Shown here piece by piece: positions 47,212 to 63,734 of a stretch of 64,000 nt of DNA (within the stretch, counting starts at the first letter, position 1; each line of letters begins with the position of its first letter). Below the pieces are notes generated by a model. That model was given only the letters and a program-made list of their open reading frames with translations, made no database searches and had not been told where the DNA came from. The stretch lies in assembly GCA_032881465.1 (NCBI GenBank), contig CP126168.1:620001-684000 (forward strand). Reading direction: 5' to 3'. This DNA comes from Parvibaculaceae bacterium PLY_AMNH_Bact1. Its GTDB lineage: Bacteria; Pseudomonadota; Alphaproteobacteria; Parvibaculales; Parvibaculaceae. Made by a program: the position numbers and the translations under genes.

Positions 47212-48621
47212 GTGAGTAAAACTACATCCGGCGTCGGTCGCGGCGTTACAATACTGCATGGTTCCGTGGGCCTGCCCACGGCCATGTTCGGCTACCCGAT
47301 TGCCATCTGGCTGCCGGCTTTTTACGCGGGTGAGCTAGGTGTTTCTCTAGCTGTTGTCGGTACCATGATCATGCTGGCGCGTCTCACGGATGTAGTGACG
47401 GACCCGGTTATTGGATATCTGTCTGACAGGTCAAAGCTGCCAATGGGGCGCCGCAAACCTTTTATGATTGCAGGCCTGCCCATCCTCGCTTTGGGTGTAA
47501 TCATGCTCTTCCTGCCCAACCAGCTGGGGTTCTCTTCGGTTGGTCCGATGCATCTGGTCTTATGGATCAGCATCATGTTTTTGGGCTCTACGCTGGTCTA
47601 CATCCCTTACTACGCATGGGGTGCGGAGCTTTCTCCAGACTATAATGAGCGCAGCCGCATCACAGCTGTGCGGGAGATATTCATCCTGGTTGGCCTTGCT
47701 TTCGCCGCGGCGATTCCCTTCGGCGTGGAGCTGGTCAATGGCGAGGGGGCGGGGCGTGATCCCGGCCTCGTACTCGAAGCCATGGCCTGGGCGATTGTAA
47801 TTCTGATGCCGTCGCTGGTATTGCTCGTTGTGTGGCGTGTTGTCGAACCCAAGTCTGAAGTTCGAAAGGACGTGCCGCTTCTAGATGGACTGAGGCTTGT
47901 TCTACGCAACGGCCCTATGGTGCGGGTTCTTGCCATCGTGCTGATCGTCACCGGGGGTGAGGCGTTTCGCAATGCTCTGTCACTTTTCTTCATGCGCGAT
48001 GTGATCGGCATTAACAGCATCGGCTCTCTTTACTTTATCTATTTTGGCGCAGGGCTCGCGGCCATTCCTTTCTGGCTATGGCTCGGGCGTAAGATGGGAA
48101 AACACAAAGCGTTTGCAGTATGTATGGCGACCGTCGCAGTGATCTCCATCGCGACGTATTTTCTTGGGCCGGGTGATGTGACGCCATTTACACTGCTCTT
48201 CATTGCCAAGGGGTTTTGCTTCGGTGGCCTGCAATTCCTGCCGCTTTCAATGCTCGCAGACGTCGTTGATGTTGATACAGCAAGGTCCAAGGGTGAACGG
48301 GCAGGTACGTTCTTTGCGATTTCCGGCATGACAGCGAAGCTGGCAACGGCTTTTGGCACCGGCATTTCACTGAATGTCGTCGCGTTTTTCGGTTTCAATC
48401 CGTCAGGTGAGGCGGGCGTTAACGGAGCGACAGAACTGAACTGGCTGGCGATCAATTATGCCATCATGCCAGCAATCTTCTTTATTGGTGCGCTTTGGCT
48501 CACCTGGAACTATCCGTTGACCGCCGAACGACAGGCACGGTTGCGCGGACTGATCGAACGTAGAACAGCCCGCCTGCAGGCAGAAGCAGCGTCTCTGACC
48601 CGCGCTGGCGAAACGAGTTGA
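47212..48621 (+). CDS. GPH-family cation symporter (MFS)
   Basis: The protein has 469 residues with twelve hydrophobic segments. The N-terminal half contains MIMLARLTDVVTDPVIGYLSDR and GRRKPFMIAG, the GPH (melibiose/glycoside-pentoside-hexuronide) signature. It carries a sugar or similar solute with Na or H. The start is GTG 47212. It lies between the lactonase and the amidohydrolase in one unit, so its substrate may be their substrate or product, not necessarily a glycoside. Confidence 0.88.
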   Translation: MSKTTSGVGRGVTILHGSVGLPTAMFGYPIAIWLPAFYAGELGVSLAVVGTMIMLARLTDVVTDPVIGYLSDRSKLPMGRRKPFMIAGLPILALGVIMLFLPNQLGFSSVGPMHLVLWISIMFLGSTLVYIPYYAWGAELSPDYNERSRITAVREIFILVGLAFAAAIPFGVELVNGEGAGRDPGLVLEAMAWAIVILMPSLVLLVVWRVVEPKSEVRKDVPLLDGLRLVLRNGPMVRVLAIVLIVTGGEAFRNALSLFFMRDVIGINSIGSLYFIYFGAGLAAIPFWLWLGRKMGKHKAFAVCMATVAVISIATYFLGPGDVTPFTLLFIAKGFCFGGLQFLPLSMLADVVDVDTARSKGERAGTFFAISGMTAKLATAFGTGISLNVVAFFGFNPSGEAGVNGATELNWLAINYAIMPAIFFIGALWLTWNYPLTAERQARLRGLIERRTARLQAEAASLTRAGETS

Positions 48622-50395: not shown

Positions 50396-51325
50396 CTAGT
50401 CAGTCGGGGGGAGGTCCATGGCCAGCCGAAAGCTCACCATGGACTGGCGCGCGACCGGAGAAAGCGAGTACCGGGTCTGCGGCCGGACGGGTCCTGGCGC
50501 ATCGGTCCATGAATGGCCTCGCAGGGCATATTCCGCGCAGGCTGGATCGGTGAGCGGCGACCCGTCGACTGGCAAACCTTCATAGCTGCCAGTCCAGCAA
50601 TCCGCCGTCCATTCCCACGCATTTCCGATCATGTCGTAGAGCCTGTTCGGGTTCGGCTTGTAGGTGGCGACGGGGGCCGTGTAGAGCGCGCCGTCATCAC
50701 AGGGCTCCCCGGCTTTGGCAGTCTTATTCTTTGAGGTGAGGTCTGGCACATTGCCGAAATCGCACACGTCATATCGAGTGCCCCAATATGGGCTTGGCAG
50801 GTTCGCGGTACTCGCGAGATGCCATTCTGCTTCACTTGGAAGCCGATATGATTGTCCATCACGGTCGGAAGCCCAATCAATGTAGGCAAGCGCATCCTCT
50901 CGTGACACGCAGACAACGGGATCGGACTCTGTTTGTTCAAAGCCGGGATTGCGCCAGTCGGCTGTCTCATCTTGCGCCCAGCCATACTGAGTATATGTCC
51001 AGCATCCGAGCCGCGTTCGGTGACCGGTTTGTTCTGCAAAGACCGAAAACTGAGCGCGTGTTACCTGTGTGGTGGCCATCATGAAGGGTTCAGCAATCGT
51101 GATCTCAACAGCAGGAAGTTCGTCAGGGCCCATCTGGTCTCCCTGTACATCTGCCCCTATCACGAAGGTGGCAGGTTCAATTCGCTCGAATCCAGGACAA
51201 GTTATGCAGTCTGCTGTTTCGGCCTTTACGGCACCAGCGAGACACAACATGATCAGAGTGCATAAAAATATCGCAAAGGGAACTCGTGCGAAGTCGGACC
51301 AAATTGTCAGCTGGCGGAAAACCAT
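50396..51325 (-). CDS. Secreted SUMF1-domain protein lacking formylglycine-generating cysteines
   Basis: The protein has 309 residues. A signal peptide (about 1-35, ending AVKAE) is followed by the SUMF1/FGE fold: QVTRAQFSVFAEQTGH, YRLPSEAEWHLAS, YDMIGNAWEWTADCW and LRGHSWTD..RPQTRYS. In true formylglycine-generating enzymes the segment after GGSW contains two catalytic cysteines (C336/C341 in human). Here it reads TDAPGPVRPQ with none, so it is unlikely to activate sulfatases. It may be a binding or lectin-type SUMF1 protein in the periplasm. Confidence 0.82.
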   Translation of the reverse strand: MVFRQLTIWSDFARVPFAIFLCTLIMLCLAGAVKAETADCITCPGFERIEPATFVIGADVQGDQMGPDELPAVEITIAEPFMMATTQVTRAQFSVFAEQTGHRTRLGCWTYTQYGWAQDETADWRNPGFEQTESDPVVCVSREDALAYIDWASDRDGQSYRLPSEAEWHLASTANLPSPYWGTRYDVCDFGNVPDLTSKNKTAKAGEPCDDGALYTAPVATYKPNPNRLYDMIGNAWEWTADCWTGSYEGLPVDGSPLTDPACAEYALRGHSWTDAPGPVRPQTRYSLSPVARQSMVSFRLAMDLPPTD

Positions 51326-51472
51326 TCGTCAGTCTTTCCCGAACACTGACATGTGTCAATTCGCAGAACTCAAAAGTGACCGACACTGGCGATTGTACGA
51401 AGACCGGTTTTGGAGGGTGGCCATTTGACACTCTCTTTTTCAGATAACTCAAAAAGCCTGAGGAGGCAGATG

Positions 51473-51883
51473 ATGGCAACCGCAACCCCCAAGCGAAAAA
51501 CAGCGAAGAAGAAGGCTGCCAAGCGCCCAGCCGCCAAAAGGAAAGCAGCTAAAAAAGCACCGGCCAGAAAAAAGACCGCCGCGAAATCTGCAACTTCAAA
51601 AAAGCGGGCCACCCACCAAACGAAGCTTGATCAGCAGATAAAGGCGATTTCCAAGGAAATTGATCGGGTTGAGCGCGAAGGAAAGAAGGTTCTGAAGGAC
51701 GCGCAGAAGCGGTATGAAAAGACGGTCAAGCAGTTGCATGGGGAGCGTGCCCGTCTGGAGAAACAGGTTGATACATTGGCGGCCAAAAGCGAGCTTGCCT
51801 ATGATGATGTGCGCAAAGGCATAGAAGCGGCCTATCGCGATCTCTCTAAAGCCGTAAAACAGGCCTACAAGCATTTCTCCTGA
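51473..51883 (+). CDS. Ala/Lys-rich histone H1-like protein with coiled-coil tail
   Basis: The protein has 136 residues. Residues 1-48 are almost only Ala, Lys, Arg and Pro, in AAK-type repeats like eukaryotic H1 tails and bacterial HU-like or H1-like nucleoid proteins. Residues about 49-136 form a long charged helix with heptad character (LDQQIKAISKEIDRVEREGK, LHGERARLEKQVDTLAA). It probably binds DNA electrostatically and oligomerises. ATG 51473 is 6 bases past AGGAGG; 51470 is the alternative. A strong terminator follows. Confidence 0.75.
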   Translation: MATATPKRKTAKKKAAKRPAAKRKAAKKAPARKKTAAKSATSKKRATHQTKLDQQIKAISKEIDRVEREGKKVLKDAQKRYEKTVKQLHGERARLEKQVDTLAAKSELAYDDVRKGIEAAYRDLSKAVKQAYKHFS

Positions 51884-52972: not shown

Positions 52973-52997
52973 TTGCATAAACCTTGGGGAGGGGCAG

Positions 52998-54218
52998 ATG
53001 ACCGAGTTTCCAGAAGGCTTTATCTGGGGCACCGCAACGGCGGCGCATCAGGTTGAGGGCAACAATACATCCAACGACTTTTGGTTGATGGAACACACAG
53101 AACCGACAATGTTCAAGGAACCGTCGGGAGATGCCTGTGATCAATTTCATCTCTACGAGCAAGATGTGCGACTCTTGAAAGAGTTGGGGTTCAATGCCTA
53201 TCGCTTTTCCGTGGAATGGGCACGGGTCGAACCTGAAAAGGGCGAGATATCGAACGCAGCGCTGGAGCACTATAGGCGGATGACTGTGTTTGTGAGAGAG
53301 CAGGGGCTCACGCCTATTGTGACGCTTCACCATTTCACATCACCCTTATGGTTTGCGCGCGAAGGTGGTTTTGCCTCGGAGGACGGGCCTGCCCATTTTG
53401 CGAATTACGCGGGCATCATGGCGGATGTGTTGGGAGATAGTTGGGGGCAGGTCTGCACCATCAACGAAATCAACATTCCCATGCGGTTCTTTCATGACGG
53501 CATGTTGGGTAACCAAGAGCGCCTCGCACCGTTCCTGGATGCTGCAAAAAAGCGGTGCGGGTCTGATGAGTTCTCGTCTTTCTTCATTGGCGACATTGAA
53601 GGCGCTGCAGAGGGCATGAAAAAGGGTCATCGTCTCGCAGTAGACGCAATCCGCGCGAGGGCGCCGGAAACCCCCGTGGGCGTGACCCTTGCGATCCAGG
53701 ATGAGCAAGCGATTGAGGGAGGTGAAGCACTGCGCGACACAGCCCGCGCTCGCTGCATTGACGCCTTTCTCGATATTACCAAGGGCGATGATTTTGTCGG
53801 CGTACAGACCTACTCCCGATCAATCTATGGGCCGGAGGGAAAGCTCAAAGTGTCCGACGATGTTGAGAAAACGCAGATGGGCTACGAATTTTATCCCGAA
53901 GCGTTGGAAGCCACCATTCGCTACACAGCTGACCATACCGGTCTGCCGATCATCGTGACAGAGAGCGGTATCGGGACTGATGACGACAGCAGGCGCCGCG
54001 CCTATGTCGAGAGGGCGCTCAAAGGCGTCCAGAACTGCCTCGCCGACGGCATCGATGTCCGGGGATATTGCTACTGGTCCATGCTCGATAATTTCGAATG
54101 GATGCTGGGCTACAAACCAACCTTCGGTCTGATCGCCGTTGATCGTATCACACAGACACGGACCGTGAAGCCAAGTGCCCAATGGTTGGGTGGCATTGCC
54201 AAAGCCAACGCCTTCTAG
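52998..54218 (+). CDS. GH1-family glycosidase (beta-glucosidase type)
   Basis: The protein has 406 residues with the GH1 N-terminal FIWGTATAAHQVEG, acid/base E157 in TINEINIP and nucleophile E322 in VTESGIG, then SMLDNFEWMLGY. Both catalytic sites differ slightly from the usual TxNEP and ITENG, and the protein is shorter than most GH1 enzymes (about 450). Specificity among beta-glucosides, galactosides or glycosylated lipids is open. ATG 52998 follows GGGGAGGGGC. It has no signal peptide. Confidence 0.92.
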   Translation: MTEFPEGFIWGTATAAHQVEGNNTSNDFWLMEHTEPTMFKEPSGDACDQFHLYEQDVRLLKELGFNAYRFSVEWARVEPEKGEISNAALEHYRRMTVFVREQGLTPIVTLHHFTSPLWFAREGGFASEDGPAHFANYAGIMADVLGDSWGQVCTINEINIPMRFFHDGMLGNQERLAPFLDAAKKRCGSDEFSSFFIGDIEGAAEGMKKGHRLAVDAIRARAPETPVGVTLAIQDEQAIEGGEALRDTARARCIDAFLDITKGDDFVGVQTYSRSIYGPEGKLKVSDDVEKTQMGYEFYPEALEATIRYTADHTGLPIIVTESGIGTDDDSRRRAYVERALKGVQNCLADGIDVRGYCYWSMLDNFEWMLGYKPTFGLIAVDRITQTRTVKPSAQWLGGIAKANAF

Positions 54219-54338: not shown

Positions 54339-54839
54339 TCAGTGAAGAACCGGCATGCCGTTCGGCCAGTTGCGATGGTGAACATTGAACACAGGCTGCA
54401 ACTGGACACCTGCCGAAATCAGCGCCAGTGCCAGATGTTGCCCTGACTGCAGAACGGTATCTGAGAGGTTTGAGGGTATTGGCTCCTCACCCATCGACGC
54501 CGATTGAAACTGATCGACCAGGGTGAGAATACGGGCTTCGTCGGCTTGCAAAGACCGCCATTTGAAACAAGGGGACCCGAGTGGTCGCCCGAATTGCGTT
54601 TCGAGGTCTTTTAGAAATTCGAGAAAACGAGGCAGCGCTTCTTGTGCATCAATTGCCGCAAATGCTGCTTCCAGTCTGATCCGTCCGCACCCGCTCTCTG
54701 AACCCATGCGGGACGCCCGCGTCGCCCAAACCACAAACTGCTCTGCAAAGCTCAGGGTCGAAAGGTCGGTGCCTGGCTGGTACTGCACGGGCGTATGTTG
54801 CCTGCCGTCTGCTTGGGGAGAGAACTCCAGCACTTTCAT
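54339..54839 (-). CDS. Conserved-looking protein of unknown function under a Fur-box-like site
   Basis: The protein has 166 residues and no family was recognised. There is no signal peptide or membrane segment; the centre is helical (SFAEQFVVWATRASRM, LPRFLEFLKDLETQFGRP) and the tail HHRNWPNGMPVLH is rich in His and Pro. A hexamer array of the Fur type (54874-54900) lies 35 bp upstream of its ATG, so iron or metal control is plausible. The start 54839 gives MKVLEFSP and a reasonable site (AGGAGCC). Confidence 0.65.
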   Translation of the reverse strand: MKVLEFSPQADGRQHTPVQYQPGTDLSTLSFAEQFVVWATRASRMGSESGCGRIRLEAAFAAIDAQEALPRFLEFLKDLETQFGRPLGSPCFKWRSLQADEARILTLVDQFQSASMGEEPIPSNLSDTVLQSGQHLALALISAGVQLQPVFNVHHRNWPNGMPVLH

Positions 54840-54873
54840 CTGTATGGCTCCTTGAGATCATGTTGCCTCATCT

Positions 54874-54900
54874 TGATAATGAAAGTGATAATGAATAGCA
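54874..54900 (-). promoter_or_regulatory. Fur-box-like hexamer array
   Basis: TGATAATGAAAGTGATAATG contains GATAAT twice, 12 bases apart (GATAAT-GAAAGT-GATAAT), as in Fur hexamer arrays. It precedes the 54339-54839 gene and shares GATAATGAAA and AATAGCAA with the site at 56985. Regulator identity is inferred. Confidence 0.45.
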
Positions 54901-54939
54901 AGAAGAAAATGCAGAAAAGTGAATGAGGTTCACCGGAGG

Positions 54940-55425
54940 TTAGGTGAGGGCAGTAGGGGAGATAATCACACCGTCGCGGTCTGCATAGAGCCAGGCACCG
55001 GGAGTGAAGGTGACACCTGCAAATGTGACCGGCAGATCAATATCGCCAAGGCCTTTCTTAATGCTCTTGCGCGGATGATGGCCGATGGCTTTGATGCCAA
55101 CACTCTCGGCTTCAAGCTCATCCCTGTCACGAACACAGCCAAACACCAAGATGCCTGCCCAGCCGTTTGTCGCTGCTAGTTGCGCGAGATTGCCACCGAA
55201 AAGCGCACACCGCATGGAACCGCCACCATCGATCACAAGCACGCGCCCTTCGCCCGGACCTTCGACGGCTGAACGCACAAGTGCATTGTCTTCGAAAACT
55301 TTGAGCGTAGTGATCGGGCCATGAAAGGAGGTCTCGCCACCATAGTCGAAGAAGATCGGATCAACATGCGCAATGCTGTCGGCGTGAGCATCGCTCAGGT
55401 CGGTCGTGGCTAAAGATGTCGGCAT
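54940..55425 (-). CDS. RraA-like protein
   Basis: The protein has 161 residues. Family core: VLVIDGGGSMRCALFGGNLA, NGWAGILVFGCVRDRDEL and the closing GAWLYADRDGVI. In E. coli RraA binds RNase E and limits its action; homologues are 4-hydroxy-4-methyl-2-oxoglutarate aldolases, and the R-D-R-D loop seen here is shared by both. ATG 55425 gives the usual start; the frame is open upstream to 55512. It is divergent from the GPH symporter gene. Confidence 0.85.
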   Translation of the reverse strand: MPTSLATTDLSDAHADSIAHVDPIFFDYGGETSFHGPITTLKVFEDNALVRSAVEGPGEGRVLVIDGGGSMRCALFGGNLAQLAATNGWAGILVFGCVRDRDELEAESVGIKAIGHHPRKSIKKGLGDIDLPVTFAGVTFTPGAWLYADRDGVIISPTALT

Positions 55426-55591
55426 CGAAGGCTCCTGAATAGTCTGTTGGGCGTTGCTATAGCGCGCGCGGTCGCCAGCGCCAAGGGGGCATGAGGAAAT
55501 AGCTACATCCATTGATTTAATGCGCTAGTTTGTCTCCCACTGTGAATTGATCGGCCAGCGGGTAGAAACAAGCCCGTTTCGTGGGGGGAAG

Positions 55592-56959
55592 ATGAGCGAC
55601 GCAACATCTGCATCAAGCGGCGCAAAGTGCCTGAGCGCAGGGACCTATGTCGGTTATGGCGTGGGCGATCTGGCGGTTAATCTATTCTTTCAATCCGCGA
55701 TCCTTTATCTATTGATTTTCTATACCGATATTGTCGGGATCTCTCCGGCGGTTGCGGCCTCCATTTTTCTCGTAGCGCGGGTTGTTGATGCGGTGACTGA
55801 TCCGCTCATGGGTGTCATTGCCGACAAGACCCGGACGCGCTGGGGAAAGTTTCGACCCTATCTGATCTATGGCTCCGTGCCGCTTTCACTGATGGCCATC
55901 GCGACTTTCTCCGCCCCGTTTTCCGATGACAGCAGCAAAATTCTCTTCGCCTACGCTACCTACATCATCTTTGGCATTGCCTATACCGTCGTGAGTATTC
56001 CCTATTCAGGACTGACGGCGGTGATCACAGACGATGCCCAGGAACGCACCATGTTGTCTGCCTACCGCATGGCCTTTGCACTGGGTGGCGGGCTGATTGT
56101 CGGTGTTGGGACACTGCCGTTGGTTGAAGCCTTTGGTGGCGGAGCGCAAGGCTATCAATTGACGCTAAGCCTCTATGGTGTGCTCGCCATATTGCTGTTG
56201 TTGGTGACTTTCATCTCAACGCGTGAACGGGTAGGGGCGACAGCGCCGCAAACGCCGCGCCTTGTTGATTGCTTTTCTGTCCTTGCCCACAACCCGCCAC
56301 TCTGGCTCATCACCACCGCCTTTTTCATGGGCATGTTGGCGTTCATCATTCGCTCCACCGCGATCATCTATTATTTCCAGTACAATCTGGGGCAAAAAGA
56401 ACTGTTCCCCGTTTTTATGCTCTCCATTCTGCTGGGCCAGCTAGCGGGCATTGTCGCAACACCGACGGTTGCGAAAAAGCTGGGCAAGAAAAACACCTAC
56501 ATCTGGGGGGCGTTGGGCGGCATGGTCACCGGTGTTGTTCTTTTTATGACTCCCTATGATGCGATTACCGCAATCTTTGTGGTCTCGATCTTTGGGTCCT
56601 TCTTCTTTGCCTTCCCAACAGTGATGGGCTGGTCGATGCTGCCGGATACGATTGAGTATGCGGAGTGGAAAAAGGGTATTCGTGCTGATGGTGCGATCTA
56701 CGCGGTCTCCAGCTTTTTCCAAAAGATGGCGATGGCAGTGGGCGGCGCATTGGCGGCCATGATCTTGAGCGTGACGGGATATGTCGCGAACCAAGCTCAA
56801 AATGCTGAAGCACTCCACGGCATCCTTTTGATGATTTCTCTGGTGCCTGTCGGGATTATGGTGATCGGCATTATTGCTATCTGGTTCTACCAGTTGGACG
56901 ATGACACCCACGCCACCATTCGCGGCGAGTTGGATGAACGTCGTACCTCAGCACTCTGA
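55592..56959 (+). CDS. GPH-family sugar:cation symporter (MFS)
   Basis: The protein has 455 residues and twelve helices. VGYGVGDLAVNLFFQSAILYLL, ARVVDAVTDPLMGVIADKTRTRWGKFRPYL and ADGAIYAVSSFFQKMAMAVGG are the MelB-type signatures; the Asp in DAVTDP is the cation site. It imports a glycoside with Na or H. Start ATG 55592 follows GGGGGG; the frame is open back to 55547. Clustering with GH1 suggests a beta-glycoside substrate. Confidence 0.9.
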   Translation: MSDATSASSGAKCLSAGTYVGYGVGDLAVNLFFQSAILYLLIFYTDIVGISPAVAASIFLVARVVDAVTDPLMGVIADKTRTRWGKFRPYLIYGSVPLSLMAIATFSAPFSDDSSKILFAYATYIIFGIAYTVVSIPYSGLTAVITDDAQERTMLSAYRMAFALGGGLIVGVGTLPLVEAFGGGAQGYQLTLSLYGVLAILLLLVTFISTRERVGATAPQTPRLVDCFSVLAHNPPLWLITTAFFMGMLAFIIRSTAIIYYFQYNLGQKELFPVFMLSILLGQLAGIVATPTVAKKLGKKNTYIWGALGGMVTGVVLFMTPYDAITAIFVVSIFGSFFFAFPTVMGWSMLPDTIEYAEWKKGIRADGAIYAVSSFFQKMAMAVGGALAAMILSVTGYVANQAQNAEALHGILLMISLVPVGIMVIGIIAIWFYQLDDDTHATIRGELDERRTSAL

Positions 56960-56984
56960 GATTGATTGCACCATCATTCAATAA

Positions 56985-56999
56985 ATGATAATGAAAATC
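56985..56999 (+). promoter_or_regulatory. Fur-box-like element
   Basis: TGATAATGAAAATCA fits the 7-1-7 Fur consensus TGATAATnATTATCA with two mismatches, 32 bases before the MFS gene start. An upstream ATCATT/AATGAT dyad (56972-56977 with 56983-56988) overlaps it. It is similar to the element at 54874. Confidence 0.5.
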
Positions 57000-57031
57000 A
57001 ATAGCAACAAATTGAGGGAGGGTGATGAGCA

Positions 57032-58252
57032 ATGACAGATGAGCTGGTGTCAGGTTCTGCGCCTGCAGACAGTCGGAGAGTGGATGTCGCGCTGATCATG
57101 ATGGGGCTCATGGCATTTTCCATGGGTCAAACGATGGTCTTTGCTGTCGCCGGACCCATTACAAGGCTAATGGGGTTGGTTGAAACCGACCTCGGGCTCA
57201 TGGTCTCACTCGCAGCGGTCACATATACAATCGCAGTACCCATTTGGGGCAGGGTGAGCGACCGTATTGGGCGGGTATCTGTGATTGCCATCGGGCTCAT
57301 TGCCTACGCGATTGCCACAGTCGCATTCGCCTATGTCATGCATCTCGGCATGACAGGGGTGCTTCTTGCTCCTGTGAGCTTAATCATTCTCATTGGGCTT
57401 CGTATGAGCCACACCATCGGCTCAGGCGGTGTGCACCCAGGGGCAACGGCGTTTATGGCGGACATCACGGAGAGCTCCAAGAGGGCTGCGGGTGTTGCAA
57501 AGGTTGGCGCAGCATTTGGGCTGGGCGCAATTTTGGGGCCGGTGCTTGCAGGTCTTCTCTCCGTCTACGGACTTCTTTTTCCGATTTATGCATCAGCGGT
57601 CGTGGCATTCATTTTGGGAATTGCCATCGCGCTCAAAGTGCGCGAGCCAGAACGCGCGAAAGGAAAAGATGCAGGCCAGATGCCCATGTTCGATATGCGC
57701 ATCCGGTCCTTCTTCCTGCTAGCGCTTATTGCTTTCACAACTGTGTCGATCATTCAACAAACAAGCGCCTTCTACTTTCAGGACCGGTTTGATCTCAGTC
57801 CAGAAGCGACAGCGCGCAATGTAGGAATTTCTGTTGGCTGCATGTCTCTCGCCATGATGGCGGTGCAGATGGGGCTCATCCAGATATGGAAAATCTCGCC
57901 GAAAAACATGTTGGTCATCGGCTTTGCAACAACGGCTCTAGGGCTTGCGCTTGTCATTTGGTCACCGTCGCTTGCATTCACCTATGCAGCTTATGCCGTC
58001 ATTGGCATCGGTGGTGGACTGATCAATCCCGGCTTACTGGCAGGCGCTTCCCTGCGTGTGGGTGCAGATCATCAAGGCGCTGTGGCGGGCGTGGTGGCAG
58101 CGGGTATGGGGGCTGGATACATAGTGGGGCCCCTTCTTGGGACCTACTTGTTCTCCCACAATCTCTTCTACCCATTTATATGTGCGGTGGGCCTCTCAAT
58201 CGCCAGTGTCTTGGCCGCCCTCCTATTAAGGCCGCAGCCTAGCGTGTCCTAA
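57032..58252 (+). CDS. MFS transporter, possibly siderophore or metal-linked
   Basis: The protein has 406 residues with twelve hydrophobic segments; GRVSDRIGRVSVI is the cytoplasmic loop motif A of the drug:H antiporter type. The 28 bases before helix 1 are polar. It could export or import a small molecule. The Fur-box-like site directly upstream hints at a link to iron supply, which is inference. The start 57032 has GGGAGGG upstream (57015-57021). Confidence 0.85.
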   Translation: MTDELVSGSAPADSRRVDVALIMMGLMAFSMGQTMVFAVAGPITRLMGLVETDLGLMVSLAAVTYTIAVPIWGRVSDRIGRVSVIAIGLIAYAIATVAFAYVMHLGMTGVLLAPVSLIILIGLRMSHTIGSGGVHPGATAFMADITESSKRAAGVAKVGAAFGLGAILGPVLAGLLSVYGLLFPIYASAVVAFILGIAIALKVREPERAKGKDAGQMPMFDMRIRSFFLLALIAFTTVSIIQQTSAFYFQDRFDLSPEATARNVGISVGCMSLAMMAVQMGLIQIWKISPKNMLVIGFATTALGLALVIWSPSLAFTYAAYAVIGIGGGLINPGLLAGASLRVGADHQGAVAGVVAAGMGAGYIVGPLLGTYLFSHNLFYPFICAVGLSIASVLAALLLRPQPSVS

Positions 58253-60752: not shown

Positions 60753-62048
60753 TTATTCAGCAGCGTCTGTTTTGAACTGCGCGCTCTCTGTTGACTCACC
60801 CAGAGCCGTCGTTGAGCTTTCGCCGCCAGCAGCAGCAACAGAAACCATGTCGAAATAGCCTGTGCCAACTTCACGCTGGTGACGTGTTGCTGTGTAGCCG
60901 TCGCCTTCTGCGCCGAACTCAGCCTGCTGCAGTTCGGAGTAAGCAGCCATGCCACGATCCCGGTAACCGGAAGCGAGCTGGAACATGCCGTAGTTGAGCT
61001 GGTGGAAGCCAGCAAGCGTAACGAACTGGTACTTGTAGCCCATTGCTGCGATTTCACGCTGGAACTTGGCGATTGTGTCCTTGTCCAGATTTGCTTCCCA
61101 GTTGAAGGAAGGTGAGCAGTTGTAAGCAAGCATCTGGTTAGGATGATCTTTGCGAACTTCTTCAGCGAAACGTTTCGCATCGTCGAGGTTCGGTACAGAA
61201 GTCTCCCACCACAGAAGGTCAGCATATTTAGCGAACTGCTTGCCACGAGCGATACAGTGATCAACGCCTGTGCCGTCTTTCAGACGGTAGAAACCTTCTG
61301 GTGTCCGGCCAGCATCGAAGTCGATGAACTCGTGATCCCGCTCGTCAACGTCAGACGTGATGAGTTTGGCAGATTCAGCATCTGTACGAGCCATGATGAG
61401 CGTTGGTGTGCCCATAACGTCTGCAGCAAGACGCGCAGCGTTCAGGTTACGCTCATGCGCTTTCGTTGGGATAAGGACCTTGCCGCCCAAGTGACCGCAC
61501 TTCTTTTCAGAAGCAAGCTGATCTTCGTAGTGCACGCCAGCAGCGCCCGCTTCGATGTAAGCCTTCATGATTTCGAAGCAGTTGAGAGGTCCACCGAAAC
61601 CGGCTTCCGCATCAGCAACGATAGGCACGAACCAGTCGCGTGTTGCGCCACCTTCAGAATGCTCGATCTGGTCGGCACGCTGCAGGGTACGGTTGATGCG
61701 CTTTGCAAGCTCAGGGCCTGCATTTGCTGGGTAGAGGCTCTGGTCAGGGTACATAGCAGAAGCAGTGTTAGCGTCTGCAGCAACCTGCCAACCTGACAGG
61801 TAGATCGCTTTCAGACCAGCGCGGACCATCTGCATGGCCTGGTTGCCGGAAAGAGCACCAAGTGAGTGGATGTAATCTTCGGTGTGAAGACCTTCCCACA
61901 GTTTGTTGGCACCGCGTGTCGCGAGCGTGTGCTCGATTGGGAAAGAACCGCGAAGCTTTTCAACTTCTTCAACTGTGTAATTGCGCTCGACGTCGTCGAA
62001 GCGACCAGCTGGGGCGCTAGGGATAATATCGTAGAACGTTTTGCTCAT
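60753..62048 (-). CDS. aceA: Isocitrate lyase
   Basis: The protein has 431 residues. The catalytic motif KKCGHLGG (in SEKKCGHL) is intact, with HYEDQLAS ahead and FNWEANLD behind. It splits isocitrate to succinate and glyoxylate, the first glyoxylate-shunt step. It follows aceB by 60 bp on the same strand, and a terminator closes it. ATG 62048 gives the expected N-terminus SKTFYDIIP. It is needed for growth on acetate or fatty acids, matching the acyl-CoA genes in the window. Confidence 0.98.
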
Positions 62049-62108
62049 AGCATTGTCCTTTAGTTAGAGGTGACACTCAGTCGAGCTATCGGTTGAGTGG
62101 TAGTGCGA

Positions 62109-63734
62109 TTAATTCCCGCTTTTGACGAGAAGTTCATAGGCCGGAAGGGTGAGGAATTCCTCGCAATCCCGGGATGTTGCCATTTCGGCGAACATAGAGA
62201 TCGCCTCGTCAAAATGGCCGGATGTCCAACGCTCTTCACCGAGCGTTTCTTCAAGTTTCTTCATTTCATCGTCGAGAAGGGTCGTGAAGAGTTCTTTCGT
62301 GACCTTCTGTCCGTCAGCGAGATCAACCTCGTGATAGAGCCACTGCCAGATCTGTGTCCGGCTGATTTCAGCCGTCGCCGCATCTTCCATGAGATTGTAG
62401 AGCGGTACCGCGCCGCGGCCGCCAAGCCAGGCTTCGATATACTGAACACCTACACGGCAGCAATCACGCAGGCCTTCTTCAGTGCGTTCGCCTTTGTGCG
62501 GCTCGATCATTTCTTTCTGACCGACATGCACATCTTGGCGCTGACGGGCGAGCTGGTTGGTCTCCGGCAGTTTGCCGAAGATCTCGCTCACCACATCGAC
62601 CATGCCCGGGTGGGCGATCCATGTACCATCATGACCATTGTTGGCTTCGCGCTCTTTGTCGGCGCGGATTTTTGCAAATGCCGCTTCATTGGCTGCATCG
62701 TCGCCCTTCACAGGGATCTGCGCTGCCATGCCGCCCATCGCGAACGCGCCGCGCTTGTGGCAGGTCTTGATGAGAAGCAGTGAGTAAGCGGACAAGAAAG
62801 CGTCGCCCATGCCCACCTGCGACCGGTCTGGCAGGATGTAGTTTGCATTTTTGCCAAGACGCTTGATGTAACTGAAAATGTAGTCCCAACGACCACAGTT
62901 CAGACCCACAATGTGGTCGCGCATTTCATAGAGGATCTCATCCATCTCAAACGCTGCAGGCAGCGTTTCGATGAGGATCGTGCAGCGTGCCGTGCCCACA
63001 GGAAGGCCCAGGGCCTTTTCAGCGTGCGTGAATACGTCGTTCCAGAGACGCGCTTCCAGATGGCTTTCCATCTTTGGAAGGTAGAAATAGGGCCCTGTGC
63101 CATTGGCTTTGAGGTTCGCGTGGCTGTGGAAGAGATACATGCCAAAGTCGAACATGCCGCCGGACATGTTCTGACCATCAATTTTCAGATGCGCTTCTTC
63201 CAGATGCCAACCGCGAGGACGGACGATGAGCGTTGCCCGCTCACCATTTGGCAGGGCGTCATATGTCTTGCCATTGGTCTCATCGGTGAAGCCGATCGTG
63301 CCGGCCCACAGATCCATGAGATTGAGCTGACCGCCGATCATATTGTCCCAGGTAGGAGACGCGGCATCTTCAAAGTCGGTCATATAAGAGTTGGCGCCTG
63401 AATTGAGCGCATTGATGACCATCTTTCGATTGTCGACAGGACCCGTGATTTCGATCCGACGATCCAGCAGATCTTTCGGAATAGGAGAGATTTTCCAGTC
63501 GCCATCCCGCACAGATTGAGTTTCAGGCAGGAAATCGGGCAATTCACCCGCATCGAACCGCTTTTGGCGCTCTGCGCGGGCTTCCAACAGCTCGCGGCGA
63601 CGACCGCCAAAATTCCGCTCCAAATCTGCGACAAAGGCTAAGGCCTCGTCGGTCAGAACGCGTTCGTATCCTGGCTTCATCGCGCCGACAATTTCGACGC
63701 CCTCAACGCTGGACTTCACCTGAGCCTGGCTCAT
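62109..63734 (-). CDS. aceB: Malate synthase A
   Basis: The protein has 541 residues, the size of the A-type enzyme. YMTDFEDAASPTWDN, LNCGRWDYIFSYIKR and DGTWIAHPGMVDVV are the conserved segments. It condenses glyoxylate with acetyl-CoA to malate. It is the first gene of the aceB-aceA unit, transcribed away from the XRE-type regulator start at 63937; the 202-bp gap holds AATCTT repeats. Confidence 0.98.
   Translation of the reverse strand: MSQAQVKSSVEGVEIVGAMKPGYERVLTDEALAFVADLERNFGGRRRELLEARAERQKRFDAGELPDFLPETQSVRDGDWKISPIPKDLLDRRIEITGPVDNRKMVINALNSGANSYMTDFEDAASPTWDNMIGGQLNLMDLWAGTIGFTDETNGKTYDALPNGERATLIVRPRGWHLEEAHLKIDGQNMSGGMFDFGMYLFHSHANLKANGTGPYFYLPKMESHLEARLWNDVFTHAEKALGLPVGTARCTILIETLPAAFEMDEILYEMRDHIVGLNCGRWDYIFSYIKRLGKNANYILPDRSQVGMGDAFLSAYSLLLIKTCHKRGAFAMGGMAAQIPVKGDDAANEAAFAKIRADKEREANNGHDGTWIAHPGMVDVVSEIFGKLPETNQLARQRQDVHVGQKEMIEPHKGERTEEGLRDCCRVGVQYIEAWLGGRGAVPLYNLMEDAATAEISRTQIWQWLYHEVDLADGQKVTKELFTTLLDDEMKKLEETLGEERWTSGHFDEAISMFAEMATSRDCEEFLTLPAYELLVKSGN

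Follow-up and report, generated by a model that had tools for sequence, protein, structure and literature searches.

The window analysed here is the whole 64,000-bp stretch G000:C1:620001-684000 of a 3.74-Mb single-contig genome from a marine bacterium of a Parvibaculaceae-like family (f1). It probably carries two genes that are repressed by Fur and released under iron or heme starvation, with a probability of about 0.7. One encodes an undescribed helical protein of 166 amino acids (aa) and the other an inner-membrane transporter of the major facilitator superfamily (MFS). Both genes are preceded by elements that are well supported, from their sequence, as Fur-type boxes. Handles beginning with G, L and f denote genomes, loci and families. 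The four features are listed below.

54339..54839, minus strand: 166-aa protein of an unnamed family, five helices predicted by AlphaFold2
54875..54901 (matrix match 54880-54901), minus strand: predicted Fur-type box 1, 41-62 bp 5' of the start codon of the 166-aa gene, score 27.1
56986..57007, minus strand: predicted Fur-type box 2, 25-46 bp 5' of the MFS start codon, score 23.9
57032..58252, plus strand: MFS transporter of 406 aa, PF07690 at 152.8 bits (cut-off 33.4)

The sites were scored with a 22-bp matrix built from 14 distinct sites 5' of 166-aa orthologues in other genera only. Across the 127,958 window positions scanned, the two sites ranked first and second (27.1 and 23.9) and no other position scored 10 or above. 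The first-pass annotation had pointed to similar elements before the two genes and had called them Fur-like, and both observations held. The 19-bp E. coli Fur consensus is GATAATGATAATCATTATC and is near-palindromic. Agreement with it was 16 of 19 positions for site 2, the highest anywhere in the window, and 14 of 19 for site 1, a value reached at two window positions; both elements were also conserved in relatives. Site 1 contains the word GATAATGAAA at 54875-54884, a second copy, GATAATGAAT, at 54887-54896 and AATAGCAA at 54894-54901. At site 2 GATAATGAAA is located at 56987-56996 and AATAGCAA at 57000-57007. The two words are 3 bases apart at site 2, and at site 1 the last word is separated from the first copy by 9 bases and overlaps the second. 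The sites are not one fixed string because the spacing of the two words differs. The bare 10-mer was no commoner than chance (four matches at one mismatch, 2.9 expected), unlike the whole 22-bp element, which was far above chance. The pattern TTGCNANTNATTNTCANTNNCA, which was devised after the two sites were known, had nine matches with at most two mismatches in the 3.74-Mb genome (three for the reversed-pattern control), and only the two window sites were perfect. A strict motif was tried as a means of finding a regulon. With three mismatches it returned only the two window sites and one unrelated place in the genome, and the matrix was used instead. A sigma-70 scan at box 1 gave two promoter-like words on the opposite strand, with no excess over shuffles. 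A plasmid search gave no match.

The 166-aa gene was found in 29 of the 116 genomes searched. These were all seven genomes of the genus, the window's own included, and 22 of the 33 others of the family. A box with at most three mismatches to TTGCNANTNATTNTCANTTGCA was present at all 29 orthologues, with 0, 1, 2 and 3 mismatches in 10, 13, 4 and 2 genes, respectively; an N in the L009 site was not scored as a mismatch. The same level was reached by 5 of 5,800 first-order Markov sequences. As TTGCNANTNATTNTCANTTGCA was written after the orthologue sites were known, the fair tests are those of the matrix on the window's genus and of the homologues outside the family. Six genomes of the genus, when aligned, also showed box 1 conserved. 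Outside the family 26 homologues were scored, taken from 32 rows with four window-family rows and two rows without a locus excluded. A score of at least 12 within 270 bp upstream was found for 24 of the 26, compared to 2 of 257 tiles from the same loci and none of 520 shuffles. At a score of at least 18 the counts were 16/26 and 1/257. A wider set of 19 homologues, left from 46 rows after exclusion of the own row and of 26 rows without a locus, had a box within the same distance in eight cases, compared to 2 of 191 control tiles. When both sets were merged 31 of 44 distinct genes were boxed. L112 and L119 are the same gene and were counted once, L129 and L130 come from near-identical species, L138 and L139 from one genus, and L140 and L116 are one place. 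Four of the 13 misses had boxes further 5' (L107, 25.6; L127, 24.4; L128, 17.6; L135, 24.2). These boxes precede or start a preceding open reading frame (ORF), possibly a gene of the same operon, and some of the misses may be explained in this way. At L107 the preceding gene encodes a DUF2325 protein (L107:170-1471), with the 25.6 box at its start, and it may be iron-controlled too.

No Pfam or NCBIfam family matched the 166-aa protein of the window at 0.01. Sets of 17 and 36 family members compared to Pfam and NCBIfam at E 1 gave scattered matches, each to one or two members. No credible match was found among PDB sequences, and Foldseek searches of the PDB (two models) and of a viral library returned nothing at E <= 0.001. 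The AlphaFold2 model, made from 36 sequences, had a mean predicted local distance difference test (pLDDT) of 84.1 and a predicted template modelling score (pTM) of 0.76, with low-confidence ends. The predicted helices span residues 31-49, 51-62, 68-83, 99-115 and 127-142. The best structural match by VIA had a Z of 2.7 and a root-mean-square deviation of 4.8 with 57 aligned, a weak match which does not in itself show a new fold. Residues R41 and E101 were invariant in 36 aligned rows and M1, W38, R85, D100 and Q112 were nearly so. A CxxC motif occurred a short way N-terminal to the DE motif in 14 of the 36 rows and a C-terminal histidine in 29. A general CxxC metal site is excluded because the window's genus retains the first cysteine only. 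The protein is probably cytosolic, as it has no evident signal or membrane segment, a judgement for which no predictor was run. Homologues occurred in 30 of 385 sampled alphaproteobacteria, from 23 genera. In a sample of the phylum 41 of 398 genomes held the family, 40 of them alphaproteobacteria. The sole homologue from outside that class (L128, genome G710) is the one with the 17.6 box before the preceding ORF. Word searches of the literature gave no description of the family, and a nameless family could escape such searches.

Orthologues of the MFS protein at E <= 1e-60 were present in five of the seven genomes of the genus. Box 2 scored 23.9 in the window's genome G000, 26.8 in G002 and 21.7 in G001. 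In a three-genome alignment it stood out against diverged flanks and was conserved in G001 and G002. In G033, which belongs to another genus, an 18.6 box precedes an MFS gene that is 48% identical. Relatives at E <= 1e-50 were found in 31 of 385 alphaproteobacteria. Loci were scanned for 28 of 36 rows, the MFS genes of G000 and G002 and six rows without a locus being excluded; one of the 28, L152, is a paralogue from G003, a member of the window's genus. Four rows outside the family had at least 38% identity. In three of these (L138 and L139 of f123, L140 of f91) the MFS gene follows a 166-aa family gene in the same direction, with a box before the family gene scoring 25.8, 33.2 and 24.7, respectively. 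The gaps between the two reading frames were approximately 23, 173 and 14 bases, stop codons included. None of the 24 rows below 38% had the partner gene in its locus, and their best upstream-flank box score was 5.9 (1,500 bp; 168 bp for L148). The difference between 3/4 and 0/24 gave a Fisher p of 0.0012, for an identity line that was set afterwards and with two of the positives from one genus. At L167 the pair is divergent from a cluster of a TonB receptor, hemP, HemS, Peripla_BP_2, FecCD and an ABC ATPase; on the far side of this cluster is an ORF that looks ferritin-like by eye. Two other boxes were noted at L165, by 166-aa family and MFS genes. One of 15.6 separates a 2OG-Fe(II) oxygenase gene from a divergently oriented gene of unknown function (L165:4453-6234), and one of 19.1 precedes a tandem pair of genes for ABC transporters that have membrane domains (L165:8104-11700).

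For the first-pass annotation, absence of the motif from metal genes would have spoken against its reading. This was checked in part and such absence was not seen, as the same box was found at genes of iron and heme uptake. The window's own genome encodes five TonB receptors. The heme/hemoglobin receptor (L088; TIGR01785 332 bits, cut-off 317) has a 21.9 box at its start and is followed by HemS, an HmuT-like ORF (by eye), FecCD and ABC genes, with two ExbD genes further on. Its true start is probably further in because the longest reading begins beside the box. At the other four TonB loci the best scores anywhere in the locus were 13.2 (L087, a B12-type receptor), 3.0, 0.0 and 2.9. A weaker box of 13.6 lies approximately 350 bp before a ferritin gene. 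A Fur-like box of 21.5 was also noted between genes for IrrA and rubrerythrin (L043 and L041, own genome 3720813-3722000); its end, TTTAGAA, we take to be an Irr-like half-site. A family-wide pattern listed 17 places in eight of nine genomes, compared to one for the reversed pattern. Two of the places overlap, which leaves 16 sites: seven at promoters of the 166-aa gene, two at MFS promoters and seven others. Among the others, Pfam identified TonB receptor genes beside L057 and L059 and a solute-binding protein gene beside L066. L061 has the same arrangement as L057, L062 and L063 are near an HslV-like gene (by eye), and L065 is the seventh.

Neighbours of the 166-aa family were also examined. 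Outside the window's family 30 neighbour proteins were annotated in 22 loci, and only four of these loci had an evident iron gene, namely ferritin in L104, L108 and L115 and a TonB receptor in L116. Further neighbours were cytochrome c' (L097, L101), a redoxin (L096) and the DUF2325 protein of L107. In the wider set a ferritin gene adjoins the L134 gene and an MFS gene lies downstream of the L133 gene. In the phylum sample hemP was found in 93 of the 398 genomes and together with the 166-aa family in 16. In seven of these 16, all of f22, hemP is directly 5' on the same strand with 12-75 bases between the matches. In G578, also of f22, it is 981 bp from the family gene on the other strand. The f22 homologue at L131 stands between hemP and imelysin, and that at L132 between hemP and an imelysin-like ORF (by eye) followed by a Bfd-like gene. 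At L129 hemP is present and the next gene is DUF1289, not imelysin. Within the window's family an NMO-type gene was seen near the 166-aa gene in 19 of 20 loci (L068-L086), a speD-like gene in 18 and a speE-like gene in 15 (both labels by eye). The window also encodes a lysine/alanine-rich 157-aa protein of histone-H1-like composition (51410-51883), which has relatives in 13 of the 166-aa family loci.

Taken together, regulation of the 166-aa and MFS genes by Fur is well supported by sequence. Four things read from the genomes themselves underlie this view: the boxes, the degree to which they are conserved, a gene order that recurs under a single box, and iron or heme genes nearby in some genomes. 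When iron is plentiful, Fe-bound Fur would occupy both boxes near the start codons and repress the two genes. Repression would extend to the hmu operon for heme uptake, at another place in the genome, and iron shortage would release all of them. We infer this scheme from the position and conservation of the boxes. The 166-aa protein would be a small, probably cytosolic, helical member of a mainly alphaproteobacterial family that serves iron or heme assimilation. The MFS protein would be its inner-membrane partner and would move an iron chelate, a siderophore or a heme-derived compound in one direction or the other. The biochemistry of the pair is put forward here by inference, and this covers Fur binding, what the transporter carries, and where the 166-aa protein resides and what it does. 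Handling of heme or iron chelates is the most likely role of the 166-aa family, to which we would give an even chance, and any finer mechanism is a guess. One such mechanism, offered tentatively and with the odds well against it, is that the cytosolic helical protein and a dedicated MFS carrier form a path across the inner membrane, or a salvage path, which takes heme, siderophores or the products of heme breakdown and runs in parallel to the usual ABC importer. The 166-aa family would be held under Fur in Fur-type lineages and would have moved into the hemP-imelysin-bfd operon in a lineage where the boxes are absent.

A number of observations weigh against the main reading of a Fur-repressed pair. 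Three FUR-family genes were found in the own genome (L042, L043 and L044). L042 exceeds the cut-off of PF01475 (134.7 bits), a model which spans the whole FUR superfamily, and its best model, NF006999 (Fur), scores 105.7 bits, below the cut-off of 146. L043 is an IrrA over its cut-off, and hemP was not found in this genome. L044, for which the best model is Zur at a score below cut-off, is directly 5' of a ZnuD-like TonB receptor gene (L089; own genome 2736606-2738900). Most annotated neighbours outside the family are non-iron genes, diverse in kind (e.g., Hsp33, LysR, phosphate acetyltransferase and a methyltransferase), and for this reason our estimate was lowered from 0.72 to 0.70. In eight of the 16 genomes with both genes hemP is far off or on another contig. 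In the genus G003 and G006 hold the 166-aa gene, and no MFS gene was found there at E <= 1e-60. The MFS gene of G004 has no box and starts 4 bases after GPH, and G005 has only a weak remnant of 5.6; the pairing of the 166-aa and MFS genes is thus not obligatory. The fourth MFS row of at least 38% identity, L141, has neither partner gene nor box, and the identity line itself was drawn post hoc, with two of its three positive rows from one genus. No box was found within 270 bp upstream in L121-L124 (f171) and L129-L132 (f22), and the whole locus was without a box in L121, L129, L131 and L132 and also in L115. The misses in f171, f22 and L115 are not explained by boxes before preceding ORFs. An Irr box, in the form of the ICE consensus, was considered as a substitute in lineages that lack a Fur box and gave at best four mismatches upstream in ten loci. 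One ICE-like word with two mismatches to that consensus was found at L129, approximately 1.3 kb off. We take Phaeomarinobacter to be a possible close relative of the window's organism. It is called close to the Rhizobiales in the available part of its description (PMC4110880). Iron control in the Rhizobiales is ruled by Irr and RirA, and these replace Fur in both Rhizobiales and Rhodobacterales, according to the accessible portion of PMC3751524. It is our guess, based on the size of their genomes and what their operons contain, that f171 and f22 are such RirA/Irr lineages.

The alternative that survives best accepts the boxes and the iron control as real and has the two genes share their regulation and nothing more. 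The 166-aa protein would then act in the use of iron or heme, and the transporter would be an unrelated efflux pump that gained a box by chance. The nearest NCBIfam models of the MFS protein are indeed Tet efflux proteins, far under cut-off: the Tet efflux and BcbE siderophore exporter equivalogs scored 77.1 of 475 and 50.1 of 600 bits. The failure to find the MFS gene in G003 and G006 and the lone gene of L141 fit this view, and the direct neighbour of the MFS gene in the window is GPH, not the 166-aa gene. Against this, two other families have a 166-aa family gene and an MFS gene running in the same direction behind a single box, and at L167 a TonB receptor and heme cluster is divergent from the pair. 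Co-regulation alone is considered unlikely. Less probable still is that the regulator is Mur, a manganese-responsive Fur paralogue known from Rhizobiales, and that the pair serves manganese. Mur and Fur boxes are alike, and the score of L042 under the Fur cut-off would suit a Mur. Boxes of the same model nevertheless stand at the own heme operon and, across the family, beside genes for TonB receptors and for a solute-binding protein, and some homologues adjoin hemP, Bfd, imelysin, ferritin and HemS. Fur is favoured over Mur because a box stands on the hmu operon and because the best regulator match is Fur, though below cut-off. A chance likeness of AT-rich promoter sequence to a Fur box can practically be set aside, since the bare 10-mer, which is not rarer than expected, is outweighed by the top two ranks that the matrix from other genera gave the sites among 127,958 positions and by boxes at 29/29 orthologues and 24/26 homologues outside the family.

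Two genes lie between the boxes.

54940..55428, minus strand: RraA-like gene, NF006875 at 219 bits (cut-off 136)
55592..56959, plus strand: GPH-type symporter, TIGR00792 at 425.9 bits (cut-off 231)

RraA and the 166-aa gene are both encoded on the minus strand with box 1 between them, which puts the box 3' of RraA. GPH and the MFS gene are both on the plus strand, and box 2, between them, is 3' of GPH. The first-pass annotation had assigned all four genes to one regulon. This agrees with the boxes before the 166-aa and MFS genes and is not supported for RraA and GPH, as no box was found upstream of either (best matrix score -6.0 across 55401-55620). Two GPH-type symporters and a GH1 glycosidase are encoded within 10 kb (47212-48621, 52992-54218 and 55592-56959), the first GPH being under the TIGR00792 cut-off, and this group looks like one for sugar or glycoside use. 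Elsewhere in the window an FGE-sulfatase domain protein was predicted at 50396-51325, with PvdO as the best NCBIfam model at 148.7 bits, far below its cut-off of 500. Isocitrate lyase-like and malate synthase-like genes are adjacent at 60753-63734 (by eye).

Control by Fur is itself well known and the new part is the target. The 166-aa family, for which there is no Pfam or NCBIfam model, is a concrete candidate for an unrecognised step in the gain or release of iron, and the pairing suggests for the MFS partner a class of substrates that can be tested.

Among known systems, FptX is an MFS siderophore permease which imports ferric pyochelin, as given in the available part of PMC7376174. Such permeases are MFS proteins under iron control, as the window's transporter would be. 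Fur is regarded as the global iron regulator of the Caulobacterales, Rhodospirillales and Sphingomonadales (PMC3751524, PMC7376174, as far as their available text goes). In Caulobacter and Sphingobium SYK-6, as here, an incomplete inverted repeat marks the Fur regulon and stands upstream of genes for iron uptake and of genes whose function is unknown. No member of the 166-aa family could be recognised in the accessible portions of those two descriptions, and the role of Fur in the window is read from sequence.

The hemP-irpA-bfd-bfr genes of Rhodobacter sphaeroides are strongly induced by iron limitation and are described as co-transcribed in the available parts of PMC4618611, PMC4176601 and PMC3413700. 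This order resembles that of f22 at L131 and L132, where a homologue stands between hemP and imelysin or an imelysin-like ORF; L129 differs in that hemP is present without imelysin next to it. The R. sphaeroides operon also differs in its control, by IscR at an Iron-Rhodo-box and not by Fur, and the same partial texts mention neither a gene between hemP and irpA nor the 166-aa family. In the roseobacter Ruegeria TM1040 genes of the hmuRSTUV type are induced by iron stress, and the accessible part of PMC5225302 places one hypothetical protein in the operons. This protein may be a member of the 166-aa family, HemP or something else. A cluster similar to those of the roseobacters is found at L167, divergent from the 166-aa family and MFS pair.

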